NCBI GenBank assembly: GCA_949743265.1
Contig: CATJSX010000058.1
Coordinates: forward strand, 1-32,322
DNA from: an uncultured Peptococcaceae bacterium
Lineage (GTDB): Bacteria; Bacillota; Peptococcia; Peptococcales; Peptococcaceae
Direction of reading: 5' to 3'
Length of the DNA stretch: 32,322 nucleotides
Position 1 is the first letter of the stretch. The number at the start of each line of letters is the position of its first letter. Below, in pieces: positions 381-11,228 of the stretch. The notes beneath the pieces are model-generated. The model was not told where the DNA came from and made no database searches. It worked only from the letters and a program-made list of their open reading frames with translations. The position numbers and the translations under genes are program-made.

Positions 381-1781
381 ATGATAGATCTAGAAACTCT
401 TGATAAAAACAGCCTATGGAAATGGGCGCTGACCTTTGCCTTTTCCTTAAGCATCATGTTAATTCCGACCAATGAGGTGTTTACACCATCGTTAAGATTA
501 TTCTTTGCTGTAACGTCTTTTGTTATTTTCTTGTTCATTTTTGAATTTGCGCCATTGCTCGTTTCTGCAGCTCTTTTACCTGCGCTCTATATTTTTAGTG
601 GATTAGCTCCTATTGATGTGGTTCTATCGCCTTGGTTAAAACCAGTGGTCTATATGGCCATAGGTGCCTTTATTTTCGCCAATGTTTTAGATGAATGTGG
701 CTTGCTCAGGCGTATTTGTTTGTGGTGTATCGTTAAATGTGGTGGTACGTATAACAAAACCCTTTATGCTTTTTACCTAGCAGGTGTCATCCTTAGTATT
801 ATCACCTTTGGTCGTGGATATATCATTATTGCTACTATGGCTTATGGCATTTGCAAAGCCTTCGGCTACGATAAACCTTGCAAAGAATCTGCCATTATTA
901 TGTCTGTGGCTTGTATTGGCGCTTTTGGGTGCACCGCATTTATTTATTCTCCAGTAACGATTTCCCTATTGCAAAGCGGCATAGAAGCGGTAGGTCTTAC
1001 GGTTACAATGAATTGGTATACTGCTTTTGTCTATAATTGGCCCCATATTATCAGTGCCCTTTTGTTTATTTGGGTTATGACAAAAATTTTCAAAACTAAA
1101 AACTTTATTGTTGCTAACGGTCAAGAATATTTCAAGGAAGAATTAAACGCTTTAGGCAAAATTTCAAAAGAAGAAGTTCACTCGCTGATTATCTTAGCAG
1201 TGATTGTTGGCTATATCTTGACCCAAAGCCTGCATGGTTGGCCTTTAGAGTATATTTTCTTTCTTGCGCCGTATCTTTTATTTTTTCCTGGTTTGCGAGC
1301 AGCTACAGTTCAATCGGCAAACAAAGTCAGTCTTAATGTATTGATTTTTATGACATCTTGTATGGGAATTGGTACTGTCGGTGTCAGCGTAGGTTTTCGC
1401 GATTTTTTTATGGCTACCGCTATGCCGATTGTTTCTTCTTTAGGAGCCGTTCCGGTGTGCATTTTAACCGTAATTATTGCTGCTGCTTCCAATTTAGTTT
1501 TATCTGCTAGCGCCATTTATGCCACATTATCGGCGCCTTTGGCCCAGATAGCAGATATGCTGGGAATGAATCCTGTTACGTTAATGATGGCTACTATCGT
1601 TGGTTCTGATTGTTATTTCTTTCCACATGAAGTGACAACGTTTGTCGTAGTTTTCAGTTTTGGACTCATTACCATGAAAGATTTTATCAAGTTGGCTTCT
1701 TTAAAAACTTTATTAACCTTTGCCATCTTTTGCCTTATTGAAATACCTTACTGGTATCTGGCTGGTTTGTTTTACGTTTAA
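381..1781 (+). CDS. DASS/SLC13-like anion permease
   Basis: A 466-residue integral membrane protein with about 10-12 hydrophobic segments. It resembles the divalent anion:Na+ symporter (DASS/SLC13) group, which imports dicarboxylates and other organic anions. The C-terminal third has the family pattern of a re-entrant Ser/Ala-rich stretch (ASNLVLSASAIYATLSAPLA, near 380-400), then a GMNPVTLMMA helix and a polar SDCYFFPHE loop before the last helices. The classic SNT substrate motifs are not exact, so a related ion-transporter family is possible. The start ATG follows AGAAGGGAG at a good distance. It is the first gene of the cluster, 39 bp before the first amidohydrolase-like gene, which suggests it imports that cluster's substrate. 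The substrate is unknown. Confidence 0.65.
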   Translation: MIDLETLDKNSLWKWALTFAFSLSIMLIPTNEVFTPSLRLFFAVTSFVIFLFIFEFAPLLVSAALLPALYIFSGLAPIDVVLSPWLKPVVYMAIGAFIFANVLDECGLLRRICLWCIVKCGGTYNKTLYAFYLAGVILSIITFGRGYIIIATMAYGICKAFGYDKPCKESAIIMSVACIGAFGCTAFIYSPVTISLLQSGIEAVGLTVTMNWYTAFVYNWPHIISALLFIWVMTKIFKTKNFIVANGQEYFKEELNALGKISKEEVHSLIILAVIVGYILTQSLHGWPLEYIFFLAPYLLFFPGLRAATVQSANKVSLNVLIFMTSCMGIGTVGVSVGFRDFFMATAMPIVSSLGAVPVCILTVIIAAASNLVLSASAIYATLSAPLAQIADMLGMNPVTLMMATIVGSDCYFFPHEVTTFVVVFSFGLITMKDFIKLASLKTLLTFAIFCLIEIPYWYLAGLFYV

Positions 1782-1820: not shown

Positions 1821-2672
1821 ATGAAAATCATTGATATGAGATGTCGTCCGCCTTTGCCATCGTTGCTTTCGACAAGGTTATATAATGTCGAATACGCGTC
1901 CGCTTTTGCTAAGAAATTTGGCAATTCCTATATTGCTGAATCAGCCATCAACCGCTCAGTAAACCAACTTATTGGGGAAATGGATGCCTGCGATATTGCG
2001 TTAGGCGTCTACGAGGTGCGTTGGAGTGATGAATTAGACGCCAATCAGGAAGCACTGGATTTTCTAACCGCACATAAAGAGCGTTTTGTTGCTTTAGTGG
2101 CGACAAATATTTTAGATTTACCCGCTAGTTTGGAAGCAATAACCACTTATGCTATTGATGGTCCTTTTATCGGCGTTAATTTAGAACCTGGCAATCCAAG
2201 CCTTGGCTATGATTCATGGTTTATTGACGATAAAAGGTTATATGCTATTTATGATATTTGTCAGCAGCATGATTTACCGCTTACTGTAACCTTTGGCGGA
2301 TGCGCTTATCCTGATGCTACCGCTTATATGCCTATTCGCGTCGAAAACGTTTTGCGGCTTTTTCCAAAACTTCGTCTTGGGCTTTGCCATGGTGCTTTCC
2401 CTTGGTTTAAAGAATATGGTGGTCTTATGGTAAAATACCCCAATCTTCGTATAATCGCTGACAGTTATCTTATGCAGACACCCGGTTATCAACATTACAT
2501 TGAGGCTGCAAACTATTTACTCAGCGATCAAATTTTATTTGGCACCTCTTATCCTTACCATGCTCAAAAGCGAGTTTGTGATTTCTACATGAATACAGGA
2601 TTCCGAGACGAGGTACTCGAAAAAATTATGCGTAAAAATGCTGCTGATTTTTTAAAGATAGATTATATTTAA
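1821..2672 (+). CDS. Amidohydrolase-fold protein A (metal ligands replaced)
   Basis: A 283-residue protein of the amidohydrolase-2 (PF04909-like) TIM-barrel type. The fold is suggested by the N-terminal strand IIDMR, the late LGLCHGAFPWF segment and the C-terminal ILFGTSYPY. In active family members these places carry HxH, a metal His after strand 6 and a catalytic Asp (FGTD or FGSD). Here HxH is RCR (residues 7-9), the usual IHxG near the middle is VTFGG, and the Asp is Ser; only the His of LCHG remains. It may therefore be metal-free, use other ligands, or be non-catalytic. Two close paralogues follow at 2689 and 4775. The ATG follows a strong GAGGAGGAG site. It is transcribed with the permease. 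Confidence 0.75.
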   Translation: MKIIDMRCRPPLPSLLSTRLYNVEYASAFAKKFGNSYIAESAINRSVNQLIGEMDACDIALGVYEVRWSDELDANQEALDFLTAHKERFVALVATNILDLPASLEAITTYAIDGPFIGVNLEPGNPSLGYDSWFIDDKRLYAIYDICQQHDLPLTVTFGGCAYPDATAYMPIRVENVLRLFPKLRLGLCHGAFPWFKEYGGLMVKYPNLRIIADSYLMQTPGYQHYIEAANYLLSDQILFGTSYPYHAQKRVCDFYMNTGFRDEVLEKIMRKNAADFLKIDYI

Positions 2673-2688
2673 AAAGGAGTTGTTTAAT

Positions 2689-3537
2689 ATGAAATGTATT
2701 GATATGCGCTGTCGTCCACCTGTAAAATCTTTGGTGAACACCAGAATTTTTGATCCTGAATTTACGACTGCTTTTGGTCAACGCTTTGGTGGCTCCTATC
2801 CTGCTCAATCGGCAGTCAATCGTTCTTTAGAACAGTTGATTGCTGAAATGGATGCTGTTGGTATCGAAAAAGGGGTGTTTTCAGTGCGCCGAGATGGTTC
2901 TGAAACCGCTAATCAAGAAGCATTGGAAGTGCTTAGCCAATATCCTGATCGATTTGTGGCTATGGTAGGTTGTGATCCGTTGGCACTGGATACCGCAATA
3001 GCCGATATTGAGCAATATGTTTTAAACGGTCCTTTTACTGGCGTCACTACTGAACCTGGCAATCCCAAATATGGTTACGACTCATGGTTTATTGACGATG
3101 AGCGCTTGTTCCCTTTATATGAAAAATGTGCTCAACATAATTTGCCCTTAATTATTACAGTTTGTCGAGGCAGTATGCCAGATGCTACCGCTTTTATGCC
3201 TATTCGAGTAGAAAATATTATGCATACTTTTCCGACATTAAAGCTAGGCCTAAGTCATGCTGCTTGGCCATGGTTCACCCAAATGTGCGGAACTTGTATG
3301 AAGTATCCTACATTACGCATTATTACAGATAGTTATATATTGAAATTACCTGGCTATCAAGATTGTATCACCGCAGCTAATTATTTGCTCAGTGACCAGA
3401 TCCTGTTCGGCACTAGTTATCCTTATAATGATCAAAAATTCGTTCATGATTTTTATCTGAACTGCGGCATTCGTTCAGAAGTTCTGCCCAAAGTCATGTA
3501 TGATAACGCCGTCAACTTTCTTGGACTAGAGCAGTAA
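2689..3537 (+). CDS. Amidohydrolase-fold protein B (paralogue of A)
   Basis: A protein of about 282 residues, alignable along its whole length to the neighbour 16 bp upstream. Shared blocks are CIDMRCRPP at the start, GGSYPAQSAVNRS, NQEAL, GNPKYGYDSWFIDDE, PDATAFMPIRVEN, LGLSHAAWPWF and ILFGTSYPY. As in A, HxH is replaced by RCR, the mid-barrel His is absent (IITVCRG) and the late Asp is Ser. The ATG at 2689 is preferred over an upstream TTG because AAGGAG lies 9 nt before it. Strong conservation of the altered residues argues for a selected function rather than decay. The substrate is unknown. Confidence 0.75.
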   Translation: MKCIDMRCRPPVKSLVNTRIFDPEFTTAFGQRFGGSYPAQSAVNRSLEQLIAEMDAVGIEKGVFSVRRDGSETANQEALEVLSQYPDRFVAMVGCDPLALDTAIADIEQYVLNGPFTGVTTEPGNPKYGYDSWFIDDERLFPLYEKCAQHNLPLIITVCRGSMPDATAFMPIRVENIMHTFPTLKLGLSHAAWPWFTQMCGTCMKYPTLRIITDSYILKLPGYQDCITAANYLLSDQILFGTSYPYNDQKFVHDFYLNCGIRSEVLPKVMYDNAVNFLGLEQ

Positions 3538-3617
3538 TCTAGCGGATACAGATTATTTAATCCAAAATAAATTAAATTAGTAATTTTATTGCAAATATTG
3601 AATGCGACATGGTTTTA

Positions 3618-3687
3618 TTTCACTCTCACTTTTGTGATAGTTTGTGTTTAGACTGATACACAATATTATCACAAAAGCGGAGAGAAA
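3618..3687 (+). promoter_or_regulatory. Long imperfect hairpin in front of the FMN enzyme gene
   Basis: A nested inverted repeat: CTCTC (3623-3627) with GAGAG (3680-3684), CTTTTGTGATA (3629-3639) with TATCACAAAAG (3667-3677), and TTGTGT (3642-3647) with ACACAA (3658-3663). That gives about 22 pairs and a 10-nt loop. No T run follows on either strand, so it is not an ordinary terminator. It may be an mRNA-stabilising or processing hairpin inside the operon, a protein binding site, or a small repeat element. Confidence 0.45.
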
Positions 3688-3754
3688 TCAGTTATAGATC
3701 TATTATTAAAATTTGGCTATATGGTTTTTAGATTTAAAAAAGGAGAAAATGGTT

Positions 3755-4753
3755 ATGCATAACAAAATATGTGAAATCCTCAACATTGAAAAACCCATCT
3801 TGCAAGGTCCTATGTCATGGGTCAGCACTGCCCCTCTTGTAGCGGCGGTATCATCTGCCGGCGGTTTTGGCATTTTAGGAACCGCCATGGCTACGCCAGA
3901 ATTTATTGCTGAACAAATGCAGGCAGTCAAAGCACAAACCGATAAACCTTTTGGATTTAATATGGCATTTCATCCTGCTTTTTTAAGCGAAGAATATTTC
4001 AGTAACATTATGACGGTTGTACGAGCAGAAAAACCAGCAGCTGTTCATCTGGATACCATGCGTAACAAAACACGACATTTTGATTTAGCTTTCGCCAAAA
4101 AATATTTTGCTCTGTTTCATGAGGCAGGTCTAAAAATCATTACTAAAGTGTTTGCTGTACAGGATGCTTTACTGGCTGAACAAGCTGGAACTGACATTAT
4201 CATTGTCAAAGGCTGGGAAGGTGGTGGCCATATTACTGAACAGACCACTATGGTATTAGTACCTCAGGTCAGAGATATTTTATCAGTGCCAATTATTGCT
4301 TCTGGTGGTATTGCTGACGGGCGCGCCATGGCAGCGGCCATGATATTGGGCGCTGATGGTATTGAGATGGGAACGGCCTTCCTTGCTGCATCGGAAACGG
4401 CAATTCATCCCAACGCAAAAGCAGCAATACTTCAGGCTGGCGATATGTCTACAGTTATCACTGGGAGCTGTGCTGATGAATCCTGCCGTCAACTGCGCAA
4501 TAGTTTAGCAGAGCAGGTAAATGCTATTGAAAAAGAATATCCAGCGGCAGAAGCTGCTCAACGCATCCAACCGCTGGTTTTCCGCTCTGGTCGCACAGCA
4601 ATGCAAATAGGAGATATAGAACAAGGAGCTGTTATGGCAGGTCAAATCGTTGCTGCTATTGATTCCATTCGACCAGCACAAGATATTATTGAAACCGTTT
4701 ACAGTCAATGCCAAAAATTTCTGCTCAACGCCCGTGATATCGTTCTTCAGTAA
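3755..4753 (+). CDS. Nitronate monooxygenase / FabK-like FMN enzyme
   Basis: A protein of about 332 residues of the 2-nitropropane dioxygenase-like TIM-barrel family, which includes nitronate monooxygenases and the enoyl-ACP reductase FabK. Visible marks: ILQGPMSWVS near the N-terminus, SSAGGFGILG, the KGWEGGGHI loop with the family's catalytic His, and the phosphate-binding repeats PIIASGGIADGRAM and LGADGIEMGTAFLA that hold FMN. The ATG at 3755 is chosen because AGGAG lies 9 nt before it; the ATG at 3749 is too close. It sits between two amidohydrolase-like paralogues and so probably acts in the same pathway. No fatty acid synthesis genes are nearby, which makes a FabK role less likely. The substrate is unknown. 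Confidence 0.75.
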   Translation: MHNKICEILNIEKPILQGPMSWVSTAPLVAAVSSAGGFGILGTAMATPEFIAEQMQAVKAQTDKPFGFNMAFHPAFLSEEYFSNIMTVVRAEKPAAVHLDTMRNKTRHFDLAFAKKYFALFHEAGLKIITKVFAVQDALLAEQAGTDIIIVKGWEGGGHITEQTTMVLVPQVRDILSVPIIASGGIADGRAMAAAMILGADGIEMGTAFLAASETAIHPNAKAAILQAGDMSTVITGSCADESCRQLRNSLAEQVNAIEKEYPAAEAAQRIQPLVFRSGRTAMQIGDIEQGAVMAGQIVAAIDSIRPAQDIIETVYSQCQKFLLNARDIVLQ

Positions 4754-4774
4754 AGCTCTAGGAGGTGAATATTT

Positions 4775-5629
4775 TTGTACGCTATTGATATGCGTTGCCG
4801 TCCGCCATTGGATTCTACTTTAGATAGTCGTATGTATGATATGGATTATGCTTCGGCATTTGCTTATAAGTTTGGTGGCTCTTATCCCGCCCTATCTGCT
4901 CAAAAGCGTTCTGTTGCAAGTTTGCTGCAAGAAATGGAAAATACCAAAATAGTCATGGCTGTTTATGAAATTGGCTATGCGCCCAATATAGATGTTAACG
5001 CTGAAGCTTACGATTTTCTGCAAATCCACGGCGACCATTTCGTTGCTATGATTGGCACCAATATCACTGATATTCCTGCCTCATTGCAGGCTATTAAACA
5101 ATATCACTCTTTGGCGCACTTTGCAGGCGTGAATATTGATCCCGGTACGCCGCTTTTGGGTGTCTATTCCAAATATATCGACGATGAAACCCTTTTTCCT
5201 ATTTATCAGCTATGCCAAGATCTGAAATTACCTGTTACTGTCGCTTTTGGTGGATATGCTTATCCAGATATAACAGCTTATTTGCCGGTACGTATTGAAA
5301 ATGTTACACGTGTTTTTCCTAACTTGCGTTTGTGTTTTTGTCATGGGGTTTGGCCCTACACCACACAAATTTGCGGCTTAGCTCTTCAATATCAAAACGT
5401 TTATTTATGTCCAGACAGCTATTTAATGCTCATGCCCAGTTATCAAGACTATATTATAGCGGCCAATTATTTTATTCCAGAACAAATACTTTTTGGCACT
5501 TCCTATCCTTTTCATGCGCAGCAAAATGTCTATGCTTTCTATTTGAAGGCAGGTTTCACTGACGAGGCGTTGCCAAAAGTGATGTATGAAAATGCAGCTT
5601 GCTTCTTAAATCTTTCTACATCAAAATGA
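4775..5629 (+). CDS. Amidohydrolase-fold protein C (paralogue of A and B)
   Basis: A 284-residue third copy of the A/B family. It has AIDMRCRPPLDS at the start, GGSYPALSAQKRS, PDITAYLPVRIENV, FCHGVWPYT and ILFGTSYPF. It shows the same losses: RCR for HxH, VAFGG for the mid-barrel His region and Ser for the late Asp, with the His of FCHG kept. The start is TTG at 4775, fixed by the near-perfect AGGAGGTGA site 6 nt before it and by alignment of the N-terminus with A and B. It lies 21 bp after the FMN enzyme and ends just before a terminator, so it closes the first transcription unit. Confidence 0.75.
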   Translation: MYAIDMRCRPPLDSTLDSRMYDMDYASAFAYKFGGSYPALSAQKRSVASLLQEMENTKIVMAVYEIGYAPNIDVNAEAYDFLQIHGDHFVAMIGTNITDIPASLQAIKQYHSLAHFAGVNIDPGTPLLGVYSKYIDDETLFPIYQLCQDLKLPVTVAFGGYAYPDITAYLPVRIENVTRVFPNLRLCFCHGVWPYTTQICGLALQYQNVYLCPDSYLMLMPSYQDYIIAANYFIPEQILFGTSYPFHAQQNVYAFYLKAGFTDEALPKVMYENAACFLNLSTSK

Positions 5630-5645
5630 ATCGCAAGTTTATATA

Positions 5646-5681
5646 AAAGCTGTCCCACTGTTTTATAGGGCAGCTTTTTTT
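5646..5681 (+). terminator. Rho-independent terminator after protein C
   Basis: AAAAGCTGTCC pairs with GGGCAGCTTTT (one G-U pair), followed by a run of T residues. It lies just downstream of the stop of the third paralogue and marks the end of the 381-5629 unit. Confidence 0.8.
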
Positions 5682-6028
5682 GTTGTTTGACAATAGATGA
5701 TTGTTCATCAGCTGAAGAATAGTATAACGACTGAAAATTGAATTCGTAGAAGTAACGTTATTTGATAAGCAAAGAAAATCATGTTAGAAAAAATTTTTGG
5801 AGGGGATTATCTGCAACTTCTAAAATTTACGTCATTGGTTTGCTGCTAATAGTCCTATCTTTTCAGTATTAACAATAGAGCGTAAAAACTGAAACGACGA
5901 GTATGAATATAGTTTTATATTTATGATTTCACTCAATCTGTCCTTGATAAAAAAGCAAAACTGTCACTTTTTATCGGGTCAGTTTTGTGCTAAGATTATG
6001 TCATCATTTAGTGAAAGAAGGAATTCTC
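5682..6028 (+). other. Intergenic region with hairpins before the ECF gene
   Basis: No gene is supported. Inverted repeats include TTTCAGT (5861-5867) with ACTGAAA (5888-5894), and AAAACTG (5957-5963) with CAGTTTT (5980-5986), extended by AGC/GCT across a 2-nt bulge. The second hairpin ends about 40 bp before the start codon and has no T run. A regulatory leader for the transporter is possible, but no known riboswitch consensus could be recognised. Confidence 0.35.
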
Positions 6029-6565
6029 ATGAAGTATTCAACAGCTGATCTGACTAAAATGGCAATGATGGCTGCTTTAGTTTGTCTTTTGACCTTTACT
6101 GTCAAAATTCCTGTACCGGCTACAGGCGGGTATACTCATTTAGGTGATTGCATGATCTTTATTGGCGTTCTTATTTTGGGTTGGCGCAAGGCGGTGCCAG
6201 CGGCGGCATTGGGAGCAGCTTTGGCTGACCTATTTAGCGGTGCGGCGTTGTGGATTGTGCCAACTTTCATAATCAAAGGCGTTATGGCATTGATTATGGG
6301 CGTCTTAAGTGAGCGTTACTTGACCTCATATCGGCTGGGATGGTTGTTGGGAGCTGTTGTTGGCGGCTGCATTCAGATTATTGGTTATACCGTCGTTAAA
6401 ATGATATTTTTTAATTTGCCAGTAGCACTAGCAACAATACCTAATATTGTGATGCAAACGACAGCGGCTATTATGATTACTGTTGTCATTGTAATGGCTT
6501 TAACCAAAACAGCAGCAGGCAAGCAGCTGTTTAATTTGGGCGTAAATAACGACAAAACCGAGTAA
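6029..6565 (+). CDS. ECF transporter S component
   Basis: A hydrophobic protein of 178 residues with about six membrane helices. It matches the substrate-binding S subunit type of energy-coupling factor vitamin transporters (PF07155-like). Marks are the KMAMMAALVCLLTF first helix, the substrate-site loop GGYTHLGDCMIF, and ADLFSGAALWIVPTFIIKGVMALIMG. S components work with a shared EcfA/A'/T module, which is not in this window. The vitamin or precursor cannot be told from sequence. The ATG at 6029 follows AGAAGGA at normal spacing; an upstream frame extension lacks a site. It is followed 58 bp later by a canonical amidohydrolase. Confidence 0.75.
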   Translation: MKYSTADLTKMAMMAALVCLLTFTVKIPVPATGGYTHLGDCMIFIGVLILGWRKAVPAAALGAALADLFSGAALWIVPTFIIKGVMALIMGVLSERYLTSYRLGWLLGAVVGGCIQIIGYTVVKMIFFNLPVALATIPNIVMQTTAAIMITVVIVMALTKTAAGKQLFNLGVNNDKTE

Positions 6566-6623: not shown

Positions 6624-7352
6624 ATGATAAAAAAAATTGACGCTCATGCACATATTGGCAGTTTTGACGGTTGGGCAAAAGTGAGTAATACGTTAGATAG
6701 TCTAATAAACGATATGGATATATATGACATCGAAAAAGTCATTCTCTGTGCTGGTGATAATGAATCTGTCAAACAGGCAAAAAATCGTTATCCTGAACGA
6801 ATTATTCCTTTGTATTACGCTAATCCGTTTTTAGCTGATCAAGCAAAAGCTATTGCGCATTATGTTCAAAACTACCAGTTTTGCGGCATTAAATTAAATC
6901 CTTTACGACATGCTTTTGTTGCTGATGATGAAATTGTCGATCCAATCATGCAATGTGCTGTTGAGTTTCATTTGCCAGTTTTTATTCACTGTGGTCATCC
7001 GCCTTATTCTCTGCCATGGAGTATTGCTCTTTTAGCAGAACGTTTTCCCAGTGTGCCTGTTGTCATGCTTCATATGGGACATGGTCACGGCGTTTATATT
7101 GACGCCAGCCTAAAGATGGCGAGACGCTACGATAATCTTTATTTGGAAATGTCCGGTATGCCCATGCCAAGTAAAATCAAAGAGGCTTATGATACTGTTG
7201 GCAGTGAAAGAGTTCTTTTTGGCACTGATGCGCCGTTTCATCATCCTTCCGTTGAAATTCAAAAAGTTTTGACCAGCGGTTTGAGTGAAAGCGAACAAGA
7301 AAATGTATTTTATAGCAATGCTATGCGGCTGATGCAGCAAAAAAACAATTAA
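6624..7352 (+). CDS. Metal-dependent amidohydrolase (canonical motifs)
   Basis: A 242-residue TIM-barrel amidohydrolase of the PF04909 type with its metal site intact. It has DAHAHIG at the N-terminus (HxH), FIHCGHPP in the middle, MLHMGHGHG later, and FGTDAPFHHP with the catalytic Asp near the C-terminus. It contrasts with the three paralogues upstream, which lost these residues and are some 40 residues longer. It is expected to hydrolyse or decarboxylate a small cyclic or carboxylated substrate. The ATG follows GGAGGG. It is probably co-transcribed with the S component 58 bp upstream. Confidence 0.75.
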   Translation: MIKKIDAHAHIGSFDGWAKVSNTLDSLINDMDIYDIEKVILCAGDNESVKQAKNRYPERIIPLYYANPFLADQAKAIAHYVQNYQFCGIKLNPLRHAFVADDEIVDPIMQCAVEFHLPVFIHCGHPPYSLPWSIALLAERFPSVPVVMLHMGHGHGVYIDASLKMARRYDNLYLEMSGMPMPSKIKEAYDTVGSERVLFGTDAPFHHPSVEIQKVLTSGLSESEQENVFYSNAMRLMQQKNN

Positions 7353-8013: not shown

Positions 8014-9681
8014 TTAAGCTACTGTTATGCCTCGATTGATGGCGCTGACTAAAGCATTGATGGAAGCAGTAATAATATCGTTATCAATACCTGCGCCCCA
8101 AATAGTCTGACCATCTTCGCGGTCAATTCCCACATAAGCGATTGCTTGTGAAGTGGATCCAAGCTGTAGGGCGTGTTCTGTATAGGTCAAATTTTTATAC
8201 GATAAGTTTAGCTGTTGATGCAGCCCATTGCTGATAGCATCAAGACGACCGTTGCCATCAGCAGTAAACGTTTGCGATTGACCGTTTAATTCTGCGCTGA
8301 TAACAGCATGAATTCTTTCACCTTCCCGTTTGAAATGATGGCTGAGGATTTGGAGTTTGCCTTGCACATTGACATATTCTTCGAGAAAAATATTTTTGAT
8401 TTCTTCTGGCAATAACTCTTTGTGTTGATGATCAGAAATACCTTTGACCACATAGCCAAAATCCTCACGCATCTTAGGCGGCAGATCCAGACCAAATTTT
8501 TGTTCTAAAAGATAGCCGATGCCGCCTTTGCCAGATTGGCTGTTGATACGAATAACATCAGCGTCGTATTCACGACCGACATCTTTCGGATCTAATGGTA
8601 GATAAGGAATATCCCAAATTTTATTGTCATGTTCTTCACGCCACTTCATCCCTTTGGCGATAGCGTCTTGATGTGAACCCGAAAACGCCGCAAAAACCAA
8701 TTGACCGCCATATGGTTGACGCTCATATACTTTCATGCCTGTCATGGCTTCATAAACTTCCACAATTTCCGGCATATTGGTAAAATCTAAGTTAGGTTCA
8801 ACGCCATGAGAATACATATTAAGCGCTAATGTGATAATGTCAACATTCCCCGTTCGTTCACCGTTGCCAAACAAGGTGCCTTCAATACGGTCAGCTCCAG
8901 CCAAAAGTCCCAGTTCCGCATCAGCTACGCCGCAGCCGCGGTCATTATGCGGATGAAGCGACAAAATAACATTCTCACGATACTTCAAATGTTTACTCAT
9001 ATACTCAATTTGGCTGGCATAAACATGAGGCAATGACATTTCCACCGTAGCCGGCAGATTGATGATGACTTTGTGTTCTTTATCTGGTTGCCAAATATCC
9101 AATACTTTGTTGCAAATTTCCAAAGCAAATTCCATTTCTGTTCCGGTGAAACTTTCCGGCGAATATTCAAAGCGAAAATTACCTTCAGTTTTTTCGCCAT
9201 ATTCTTTTAATAGTTTAGCACCGTTTTCGGCAATCTTGATAATTTCTGCTTCTGATTTTTTAAAAACCATCGTTCGTTGTGCTACAGAAGTGGAATTATA
9301 CAAATGAACCACAGCATTTTTACAGCCTTTTAATGCTTCAAAAGTTTTCTTGATGATATGTTCTCTGGCCTGCGTTAAAACTTGCACTGTTACATCGTCA
9401 GGAATCAAGTCGTCATCAATCAGCTTACGCAAAAATTCAAATTCCGTTTCGGAAGCAGCAGGAAAACCAACCTCTATCTCTTTAAAACCTAATTTGACCA
9501 ATAATTTGAAAAACGTAATTTTTTCTTCCAAACTCATTGGTACAATCAACGCTTGATTGCCATCACGCAAATCAACGCTACACCATGCCGGCGCTTGGTC
9601 AATATATTCCTTACGGCTCCATTCCAGCGATTCTTCTGGCGGCATGAAATAACCTCTTTTGTATTTGTCTGTATAATGCAT
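8014..9681 (-). CDS. leuA: 2-isopropylmalate synthase
   Basis: A protein of 555 residues, the first enzyme of leucine synthesis, condensing acetyl-CoA with 2-oxoisovalerate. It is the long form like the yeast enzyme (LeuA type 2). The N-terminal region MPPEESLEWSRKEYIDQAP precedes the catalytic barrel with CSVDLRDGNQ, EVGFPAAS and the metal-binding LHPHNDRGCG, then GNGERTGNVD. The C-terminal part (from about residue 430) is the leucine-sensing regulatory domain. The start ATG at 9681 is set by AAAGGAG 8 nt upstream; a longer reading frame would run back into the leader terminator. It is controlled by the T-box leader directly upstream and shares a terminator with the convergent gene. Confidence 0.95.
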   Translation of the reverse strand: MHYTDKYKRGYFMPPEESLEWSRKEYIDQAPAWCSVDLRDGNQALIVPMSLEEKITFFKLLVKLGFKEIEVGFPAASETEFEFLRKLIDDDLIPDDVTVQVLTQAREHIIKKTFEALKGCKNAVVHLYNSTSVAQRTMVFKKSEAEIIKIAENGAKLLKEYGEKTEGNFRFEYSPESFTGTEMEFALEICNKVLDIWQPDKEHKVIINLPATVEMSLPHVYASQIEYMSKHLKYRENVILSLHPHNDRGCGVADAELGLLAGADRIEGTLFGNGERTGNVDIITLALNMYSHGVEPNLDFTNMPEIVEVYEAMTGMKVYERQPYGGQLVFAAFSGSHQDAIAKGMKWREEHDNKIWDIPYLPLDPKDVGREYDADVIRINSQSGKGGIGYLLEQKFGLDLPPKMREDFGYVVKGISDHQHKELLPEEIKNIFLEEYVNVQGKLQILSHHFKREGERIHAVISAELNGQSQTFTADGNGRLDAISNGLHQQLNLSYKNLTYTEHALQLGSTSQAIAYVGIDREDGQTIWGAGIDNDIITASINALVSAINRGITVA

Positions 9682-9702
9682 AATACTCACTCCTTTGTCA
9701 AA

Positions 9703-9744
9703 ATAAAAAAGCCCTTCATCTCTCAAAAGAGACGAAAGACTTTT
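9703..9744 (-). terminator. T-box leader terminator
   Basis: On the minus strand AGTCTTTCGTCTC pairs, with some G-U pairs, with GAGATGAAGGGCT, followed by TTTTT. It lies between the T-box motif and the leuA ribosome binding site, as expected for the regulated attenuator. Confidence 0.85.
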
Positions 9745-9990
9745 ATTTTCGCGGTACCACTCTCATTCATACATTTTTTGTATGCCCTCATTCCAGATAC
9801 GGACGCCAAGCGTCTTATATCCTCCTGTTATAACGGTCAGTTTCCGGCTTGACCTACTCGAATACTTCTTTCAGCTAGCTGCTTCAAGGCGAGTTCACAT
9901 CTTCTTTGCCACTGTTTTACACCGACCAACAGCTCTCTGGAGACGCCAAAAACATTACTATTCCTCTGCGACGCATTTATCAATTATTTT
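9703..9990 (-). promoter_or_regulatory. Leucine T-box leader of leuA
   Basis: The antiterminator T-box sequence GAGAGTGGTACCGCG is present on the minus strand, with TGGTACCGCG at fwd 9750-9759. Further upstream the Stem I specifier region reads GTGAACTCGCC, placing CTC (a leucine codon) at fwd 9891-9893. The AGAGAGCTG...GGTCGGTG stretch fits Stem I distal elements. Uncharged tRNA-Leu would stabilise the antiterminator and permit leuA transcription; charged tRNA lets the terminator form. The leucine specifier matches the downstream gene, which makes the call strong. Confidence 0.92.
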
Positions 9991-10208: not shown

Positions 10209-11183
10209 TTAAACTCCTTTTGCTGAATTAGCCAACTGTATCAAAATCGTTTCTTTGGCTTCGACAAAAAATGAATCTGTCGGATTAAGCTGCAAAACAT
10301 AATTAACTTTGCCCAATAAATGCTGCCAGTAGCGTTCTTCTGCCAGTTCGCCTAAAGATAAAAAATACGTATCTCTTATGGTCTGCAAATGTGCTCTTAC
10401 TCCAAACTTCTGGCAATAATAAATTTCTTGTCGAAGTTTACGACGATAGTTTTTTGGCGCTTGCAATTTTTCATTAACAATCGCTCCTGTAACGAGTTGT
10501 TGTTTATAGTAAGGCATTATTTTGGTTTTAGCCGCTTTTAAATGAAATCCTTGTTTATGCAGTAATCTTTGTGCTAAAGCAAGGACTTCTTTAGCATTAA
10601 ACTGTCCAGAAAAAATTAAATCGTCACAGTAGCGGCTATAACTGATTGCCCGTTCTTGACACCATGCGCCTATTGTTTCATCAAAACGATTCAACACCAA
10701 ATTAGCTAATATCGGCGAAGTAGGCGCTCCTTGCGGCAAATGTTCGCGATAACAACATAAATTAGCCAACATCGTCCCAATCCGTTTGGACCAACCGCTA
10801 AAAGCACTGGTATATACCTGCAAATAAGTAATATTATCAAAAAAATCAGCGATGTCTAAACGCATTACTAACGGTTTTCCTAAGTGAAGAGATGCATTTT
10901 GGGCTAATCCTATCTTTTGCCGATAAGCCATAGCGAAATTCGAAATGGGTAGTTTTATCAGTAACTTGTCCAAAATTTGCCGTTGAACGAGTTTAAGCAG
11001 ATAATCTGGCGCCAAAATTTGGCGTTTGGAACCATCTGTTTTTTTAAGATAAATAACTTGGTAATGTTTTTCTGGTTCTTTACTGAGGGCAAAAAGCGTT
11101 GCTAATTCTTTTTCTGGAGACCAAGAATTTTCACCTAATAAAGACCAATGCAACAGCAATCTGTAGTCATCACATATTATCAT
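10209..11183 (-). CDS. Retron-type reverse transcriptase
   Basis: A 324-residue RT that copies the msd part of the adjacent RNA into branched msDNA. Motifs in order: NASLH (about 96-100), the retron-specific NAxxH; RLDIADFFDNI (motif A); LPQGAPTSPILANL (about 149-162, motif B); RYCDDL (about 184-189), the active site with YCDD in place of the common YADD; and VTGAIVN (from about 231), the retron VTG motif. It ends with a thumb segment containing NYVLQLNPTD. There is no maturase or endonuclease domain and no fused effector. The ATG at 11183 has AGGCGGTGA 8 nt upstream; a GTG at 11195 is an alternative start. The structured RNA lies 46 bp upstream and a coupled small ORF follows. Confidence 0.93.
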   Translation of the reverse strand: MIICDDYRLLLHWSLLGENSWSPEKELATLFALSKEPEKHYQVIYLKKTDGSKRQILAPDYLLKLVQRQILDKLLIKLPISNFAMAYRQKIGLAQNASLHLGKPLVMRLDIADFFDNITYLQVYTSAFSGWSKRIGTMLANLCCYREHLPQGAPTSPILANLVLNRFDETIGAWCQERAISYSRYCDDLIFSGQFNAKEVLALAQRLLHKQGFHLKAAKTKIMPYYKQQLVTGAIVNEKLQAPKNYRRKLRQEIYYCQKFGVRAHLQTIRDTYFLSLGELAEERYWQHLLGKVNYVLQLNPTDSFFVEAKETILIQLANSAKGV

Positions 11184-11228
11184 GTGGTTATTCACCGCCT
11201 GCCTTATTCAGCTGCTTTATAAAAAGCT

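Follow-up and report, generated by a model that had tools for sequence, protein, structure and literature searches.

Three paralogous genes at positions 1821–5629 of a 32,322 nt stretch of DNA from an uncultured Peptococcaceae bacterium (contig CATJSX010000058.1, assembly GCA_949743265.1; the whole stretch is hereafter called the window) encode DxRxRPP amidohydrolase-fold proteins, labelled here AHS1–3, in which an arginine pair stands in place of the metal-binding histidine pair. They belong to a subfamily spread over Bacillota, Pseudomonadota and Campylobacterota, labelled DxRxRP (D-x-R-x-R ... H[GA]x[WYF]P ... PDxY ... G[ST][AS][YH]P), and probably have a distinct, metal-free function. The genes found beside its members make it likely that the family acts in organosulfonate or sulfite metabolism; this sulfonate link is well supported, while the case for an exact reaction is circumstantial. 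The proposal as a whole, a metal-free Arg-pair subfamily in organosulfonate metabolism together with a pathway encoded by the operon of the three genes, has somewhat less than an even chance of being correct.

Metal-site residues and the DxRxRP subfamily

The three open reading frames (ORFs) are intact, and their products all match PF04909 (64–73 bits against a cut-off of 26.4). Strand beta-1 reads IDMRCRPP in each, against D-x-H-x-H in canonical members, and beta-8 reads GTSYP instead of their G[ST]D. The end of beta-5 carries no His in any of the three, and the beta-6 His (H190 of AHS1) is kept. The preliminary description had proposed exactly this pattern: Amidohydro_2 proteins with RCR for HxH, no mid-barrel His, Ser for the catalytic Asp, one retained His and a shared DMRCRPP/GTSYP signature. 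Each element was recovered, and alignment with solved metal enzymes gave the same result: the canonical beta-5 His (YLH in 3s4t, YIH in 4icm) pairs with a Thr/Val/Phe stretch of the family profile, and the beta-8 Asp (STDWP, AIDYP) falls opposite the Ser/Ala of G[ST][AS]YP. The possibility that the true ligands are shifted elsewhere and intact found no support in profile and structure comparison, in which the beta-6 His alone was kept among the canonical positions.

The window genome (3.04 Mb, 98% complete) encodes 20 DxRxRP members, 19 of them full-length. The trio carry the motifs D-x-R-x-R, H[GASC]x[WYF]P, PDxY and G[ST][AS][YFH]P. Where metal-dependent amidohydrolases have HxH or ExH at beta-1, all 19 full-length copies have RxR; other residues replace the beta-5 His, and Ser, Ala or Thr the beta-8 Asp. 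D5, R7, R9 and H190 are likewise kept in 19/19, and both these residues and the RxR are shared by BB4693 of Bordetella bronchiseptica (PDB 3irs, 3k4w), an uncharacterised TIM barrel from structural genomics. This protein is of the same subfamily (31–33% identity; E-value of 4e-97 with the family profile), with DFRLRPP, no beta-5 His, SHG and GTAYP; it differs from the trio in its phylum, in its place in the tree (branch C, below) and in its beta-8 residue, which is Ala where the trio have Ser. No published function for BB4693/3irs was found in the open-licence literature. It was the best fold match (TM-score 0.84) to an AlphaFold model of AHS1 (pLDDT 85.7, pTM 0.87), followed by metal-dependent Amidohydro_2 decarboxylases (2dvt, TM-score 0.76). 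These decarboxylases and hydratases of cog2159 (gamma-resorcylate decarboxylase 2dvt, ACMSD, LigJ) resemble the DxRxRP proteins in fold (TM-scores 0.6–0.76) and in PF04909 but, unlike them, retain the metal ligands. It is plausible that the Arg pair, the kept His and the conserved D214-x-Y216 form a metal-free anion-binding pocket.

A maximum-likelihood tree of 60 rows resolved four groups (branches): A, linked to HpsG and microcompartments (support 100/99); B, proteobacterial and campylobacterotal, with SsuD or SorA-like neighbours (100/100); C, comprising BB4693, M. nodulans and Cupriavidus (100/99); and D, with 28 rows, all from the bacterial family of the window and including 19 of the 20 copies of its genome (100/98). 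The trio form one clade (100/99) inside group D. Their sister (100/97) is a relative in genome G007 whose locus has the order DASS transporter, NMO/FabK-like flavoprotein, AHS gene, and therefore the trio are best read as the product of local triplication of an existing module. The ratio of nonsynonymous to synonymous substitution rates (dN/dS) was saturated for the pairs that did not include AHS1. The metal site had been described earlier as lost in parallel in the three paralogues. This is ruled out by the shared ancestry seen in the tree, and the replacement is, judged from these comparisons, an ancestral state inherited by a wide subfamily.

Within its order, DxRxRP occurs only in the family of the window (10 of 13 genomes, 0–8 copies in the relatives), and it is rare in the phylum (13/398 genomes). 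Viral contigs contained no DxRxRP relative that would point to a phage origin, plasmid relatives were only 22–33% identical, and E. coli genomes gave no DNA-level match.

Sulfonate and sulfite genes beside DxRxRP members

In the window genome, the group-A gene clusters with a glycyl radical enzyme scoring 1346 bits against the HpsG sulfopropanediol model (NF048011; cut-off 1000). The same neighbourhood of HpsG and a group-A AHS gene is found in six distant Bacillota genomes (1546–1585 bits) and in one relative (G001), and the two genes lie within 4 kb of each other in eight of the nine genomes that have both, these eight (1345–1585 bits) representing five families. Across the 398 genomes of the phylum, HpsG is present in 9/13 genomes with AHS genes and 3/385 others (Fisher p 2e-13), and dsrA in 11/13 and 43/385 (p 7e-9); with the window's own family removed the values are 1e-9 and 1e-5. 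All 13 genomes of that family have a dsrA match, eight over the cut-off, and at one locus (L019) two AHS genes lie 6–10 kb from dsrAB.

Some branch-A members look, from their sequences, like microcompartment cargo. In one genus (g5) a microcompartment operon ends with the AHS gene, whose product carries an N-terminal helix-like stretch and an Ala/Pro linker. In genome G395 the C-terminal sequence of the AHS protein, IQVIIENVIAQL, is similar to the tail of its operon's aldehyde dehydrogenase, IEDIVKQVLQQL. A hydrophobic-moment test of these encapsulation-like tails carried no information, as it failed for a PduP tail too, so that the likeness is one of motif only. Microcompartment operons ending in a DxRxRP gene, with an N-terminal encapsulation-like extension in its product, were seen in relatives bearing sulfite reductase (L125, L127, L128, L129).

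In branch B, nine of the 15 named loci (one of them truncated at a contig end) have an SsuD homologue within the operon of the AHS gene or close to it; they come from Gemmobacter, Pseudomonas, Rhodobacteraceae, a gammaproteobacterial metagenome-assembled genome (MAG) and two Campylobacteraceae MAGs. Plasmids of Aliarcobacter, Azospirillum and Methylocystis also carry an SsuD homologue beside an AHS gene, the last two with sfnG and msuE, and in M. bullatum the AHS gene is adjacent to a SorA-like molybdoenzyme, cytochrome c and YeiH. The branch-C loci of M. nodulans and two Cupriavidus combine succinate dehydrogenase (SDH), fumarase, AHS, an organic-acid transporter (dicarboxylate or tripartite) and a TauE-type gene, to which M. 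nodulans adds SorAB-like and YeiH genes. This context suggests fumarate and sulfite as the products in branch C, for example from sulfosuccinate.

A rival idea is that the proteins decarboxylate or hydrolyse plain organic anions at a metal site that may be rebuilt from other residues such as H190 and D214. This would match the nearest metal-enzyme folds, which are Amidohydro_2 decarboxylases, and the conservation of D214 and H190 in most members. The sulfonate link would then be indirect, reflecting the need of sulfite reducers for electron donors; SsuD operons in aerobes and the adjacency to HpsG across Bacillota families are left unexplained by this idea, which we consider quite improbable. 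HpsG, IslA and SsuD all release sulfite and a carbonyl compound. Wherever sulfite is freed by a C–S cleaving enzyme along with a carbonyl or enoate product, spontaneous adducts form (aldehyde-bisulfite, or Michael adducts such as sulfosuccinate), and an accessory lyase that splits them would use the same elimination chemistry in a housekeeping or salvage role. The adjacency of branch A and B members to HpsG or SsuD, the cargo-like appearance of some of them and the company of fumarase and SDH in branch C all suit such a lyase, but the 19 paralogues of branch D, mostly with a transporter and with no other C–S cleaving enzyme nearby, do not, and as an account of the family it is unlikely.

The window operon and its proposed pathway

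The trio are part of a five-gene operon that ends in a hairpin. The features of this part of the window are:

381–1781 (+): DASS/CitMHS-type sodium:organic-anion symporter, first gene of the operon (PF00939, E 2e-21)
1821–2672 (+): AHS1, DxRxRPP amidohydrolase-fold protein (PF04909, E 5e-20; residues R7, R9, H190, D214, Y216, S243)
2689–3537 (+): AHS2, paralogue of AHS1 (PF04909, E 8e-19; 56–57% identity to AHS1)
3749–4753 (+): NMO/FabK-like flavin mononucleotide (FMN) protein, putative ene-reductase (PF03060, E 2e-59)
4775–5629 (+): AHS3, paralogue of AHS1 (PF04909, E 2e-17; 54% identity to AHS1; ribosome-binding site AGGAGG)
5645–5682 (+): terminator-like hairpin, with a T run, that closes the operon (folding energy −14 kcal/mol, z −2.8)
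5987–6565 (+): ECF-type riboflavin-transporter-like S component (PF07155, E 1.5e-26), outside the operon and no part of the system
6624–7352 (+): canonical metal-type Amidohydro_2 relative (HAHIG, FIHCGH, GTDAP), a separate unit with 23% identity to AHS1

AHS1 starts 40 bp 3′ of the DASS gene, behind the ribosome-binding site GGAGG. The start of AHS2 is likelier to be the ATG at 2689 than the TTG at 2680 of the first-stage ORF, and that of the flavoprotein is the ATG at 3749, behind GGAG (the mechanical ORF begins at 3713). One TIGR model each scored under its cut-off for the two non-AHS proteins: 77.9 bits for the symporter with TIGR00785 (cut-off 198.6) and 280 bits for the flavoprotein with TIGR03151 (cut-off 453). 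The hairpin is missing from a consensus terminator scan, whose loop limit is 8. The canonical relative at 6624 (IDAHAHIG ... FIHCGH ... HMGHG ... GTDAP), earlier named as a neighbour of the trio, is indeed present but stands apart from them, with the hairpin and the ECF transporter component in between.

Transporters and flavoproteins recur at the other DxRxRP loci of the window genome. A DASS carrier is beside or near the AHS gene at 14 of the 15 loci, and the exception begins at a contig end; by PF00939 matches alone, 16 of the 20 copies are within about 3 kb of a carrier, as against about 11% of the genome (binomial 2e-12, ignoring the clustering of copies). The genome has two PF03060 genes over the cut-off, both beside AHS genes, its five best-scoring OYE-family genes all lie within 4 kb of one, and ene-reductase-type flavoproteins adjoin AHS genes at seven loci. 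Both kinds of protein, NMO/FabK and OYE, belong to the flavin ene-reductases, and therefore an elimination that forms a C=C bond is proposed.

Several other observations were made around these genes. The 3-Mb genome has about 47 DASS (PF00939) matches, and 11 of its 12 OYE-family genes have such a match within 3.6 kb. Near DASS and DxRxRP genes, type I phosphodiesterase-like proteins (PF01663, about 680 aa) recur (L012:5515–7584, L013:6170–8263, L015:2269–4305, L022:8094–10136), and an AprA-like flavoprotein next to a DASS gene is split into two overlapping ORFs (L021:13435–15116, −), possibly by a frameshift or an assembly error. Elsewhere in the window, a retron-type reverse transcriptase (10209–11195, −) has an Ec107-like retron enzyme as its best match (390 bits), and an Rfam scan found no msr RNA for it; a T-box leader (9725–9980, −; 130 bits) precedes a leuA-like ORF (8014–9726).

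In the pathway we favour, the DASS symporter would import a sulfonated carboxylate, from which the metal-free AHS proteins would eliminate sulfite, R7 and R9 holding the anionic group or groups and H190, with D214 and Y216, serving as acid/base. The flavoprotein (of OYE type at sister loci) would then reduce the activated C=C product, and the freed sulfite would pass to DsrAB, in a host that may respire sulfite. Imported sulfonates would be the source of sulfite in groups D and C, and adducts or alternative sulfonates in groups A and B. That the DxRxRP proteins themselves eliminate sulfite is a tentative proposal, held with much less confidence than their place in sulfonate or sulfite metabolism.

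The carboxylate transporters that are the main neighbours in branch D would also suit a lactonase, isomerase or hydratase that works without metal on sulfonated or plain carboxylates, as LigI and D-galactarolactone isomerase do, and prepares substrates with no C–S cleavage. Metal-independent lactonases and isomerases of the superfamily are known (among the lactonases LigI, L-fuconolactonase and the 4-sulfomuconolactonase of cog3618) and set a precedent for metal-free chemistry on this fold, once for sulfite release. They keep HxH and Asp, however, in contrast to the RxR and Ser of the trio; no cog3618 entry was recognised among the best 50 fold matches, nor any sugar-acid gene at DxRxRP loci, and sulfite and sulfonate genes recur in branches A–C. 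We regard this alternative, too, as having a low probability. The preliminary description had allowed for metal-free catalysis, another metal, or a multi-subunit sensor or scaffold, and made no mention of organosulfonates. Of these options, a function that is probably metal-free is supported. A non-catalytic role would fit the loss of every canonical metal ligand except the beta-6 His and the several paralogues per genome, but pocket residues are conserved over four branches, the genes sit in catabolic-type operons beside transporters, LysR regulators are already present at many DxRxRP loci, and some relatives have cargo-like tails; a sensor or scaffold is thus very improbable.

Several points weigh against the proposal. 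Within the window operon there is no sulfonate-specific gene. DASS carriers transport many carboxylates, and most of the roughly 47 in this genome are not beside AHS genes. The Fisher values count related genomes as independent, although the linked genomes span five families, and weak dsrA matches also arise in ordinary genomes, so that dsrA is unproved in the five family genomes whose matches fall under the cut-off, some of these assemblies being incomplete. Branches A and B have a C–S cleaving enzyme of their own (HpsG, SsuD), and therefore the AHS proteins there may act on a different step. The relatives in Hydrogenophaga, Caballeronia and Desulfolutivibrio have no evident sulfonate or sulfur-gene context, and the motif does not extend to those in Pseudosulfitobacter and Rhizobium. 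No activity is known for any member. Membership of DxRxRP is unproved, too, for HMPREF0179_00649, the predicted amidohydrolase of the Bilophila wadsworthia microcompartment discussed below.

Relation to known systems and significance

The organosulfonate lyases HpsG and IslA (glycyl radical enzymes), SuyAB and CuyA would share the freeing of sulfite with the proposed reaction, but their folds and cofactors are unrelated. The trio have no homology to these enzymes or to Xsc; PF04909 is their sole match and they fall in no NCBIfam family, and HpsG is a genomic neighbour of DxRxRP genes, not a homologue. A described neighbourhood of the same type is that of the IslA microcompartment of B. wadsworthia, with PduS/PduT-like proteins, phosphotransacetylase, aldehyde dehydrogenase and HMPREF0179_00649; in this isethionate cluster the predicted amidohydrolase, next to the PduS homologue, has no assigned role (PMC8667426). 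In the open-licence literature, no description was found of an amidohydrolase sulfolyase or of desulfonation of sulfosuccinate to fumarate. Nor was any account of the subfamily's function or of its sulfonate link found there; the fold, PF04909 and metal-free enzymes of the amidohydrolase fold were already known.

Breaking the C–S bond of organosulfonates contributes to the sulfide formed in guts and sediments, and the known anaerobic enzymes for this step need glycyl radicals, iron or pyridoxal phosphate. In its most far-reaching form, which we judge unlikely, the proposal is that the DxRxRP proteins form a new class of sulfonate lyases that need neither metal nor cofactor, built on the amidohydrolase fold with an Arg pair and a His where the metal pocket has been emptied. 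Duplication into 20 members, each set up with dedicated transporters, would let a sulfite reducer draw sulfite from many organosulfonates, and members would also work in SsuD operons and in the lumen of sulfonate microcompartments. If so, a further route to sulfite would be provided by a cofactor-free lyase family that has expanded 20-fold in one sulfite reducer. Such a family might also explain the role-less gene of the isethionate type of microcompartment, and would give 3irs a function.

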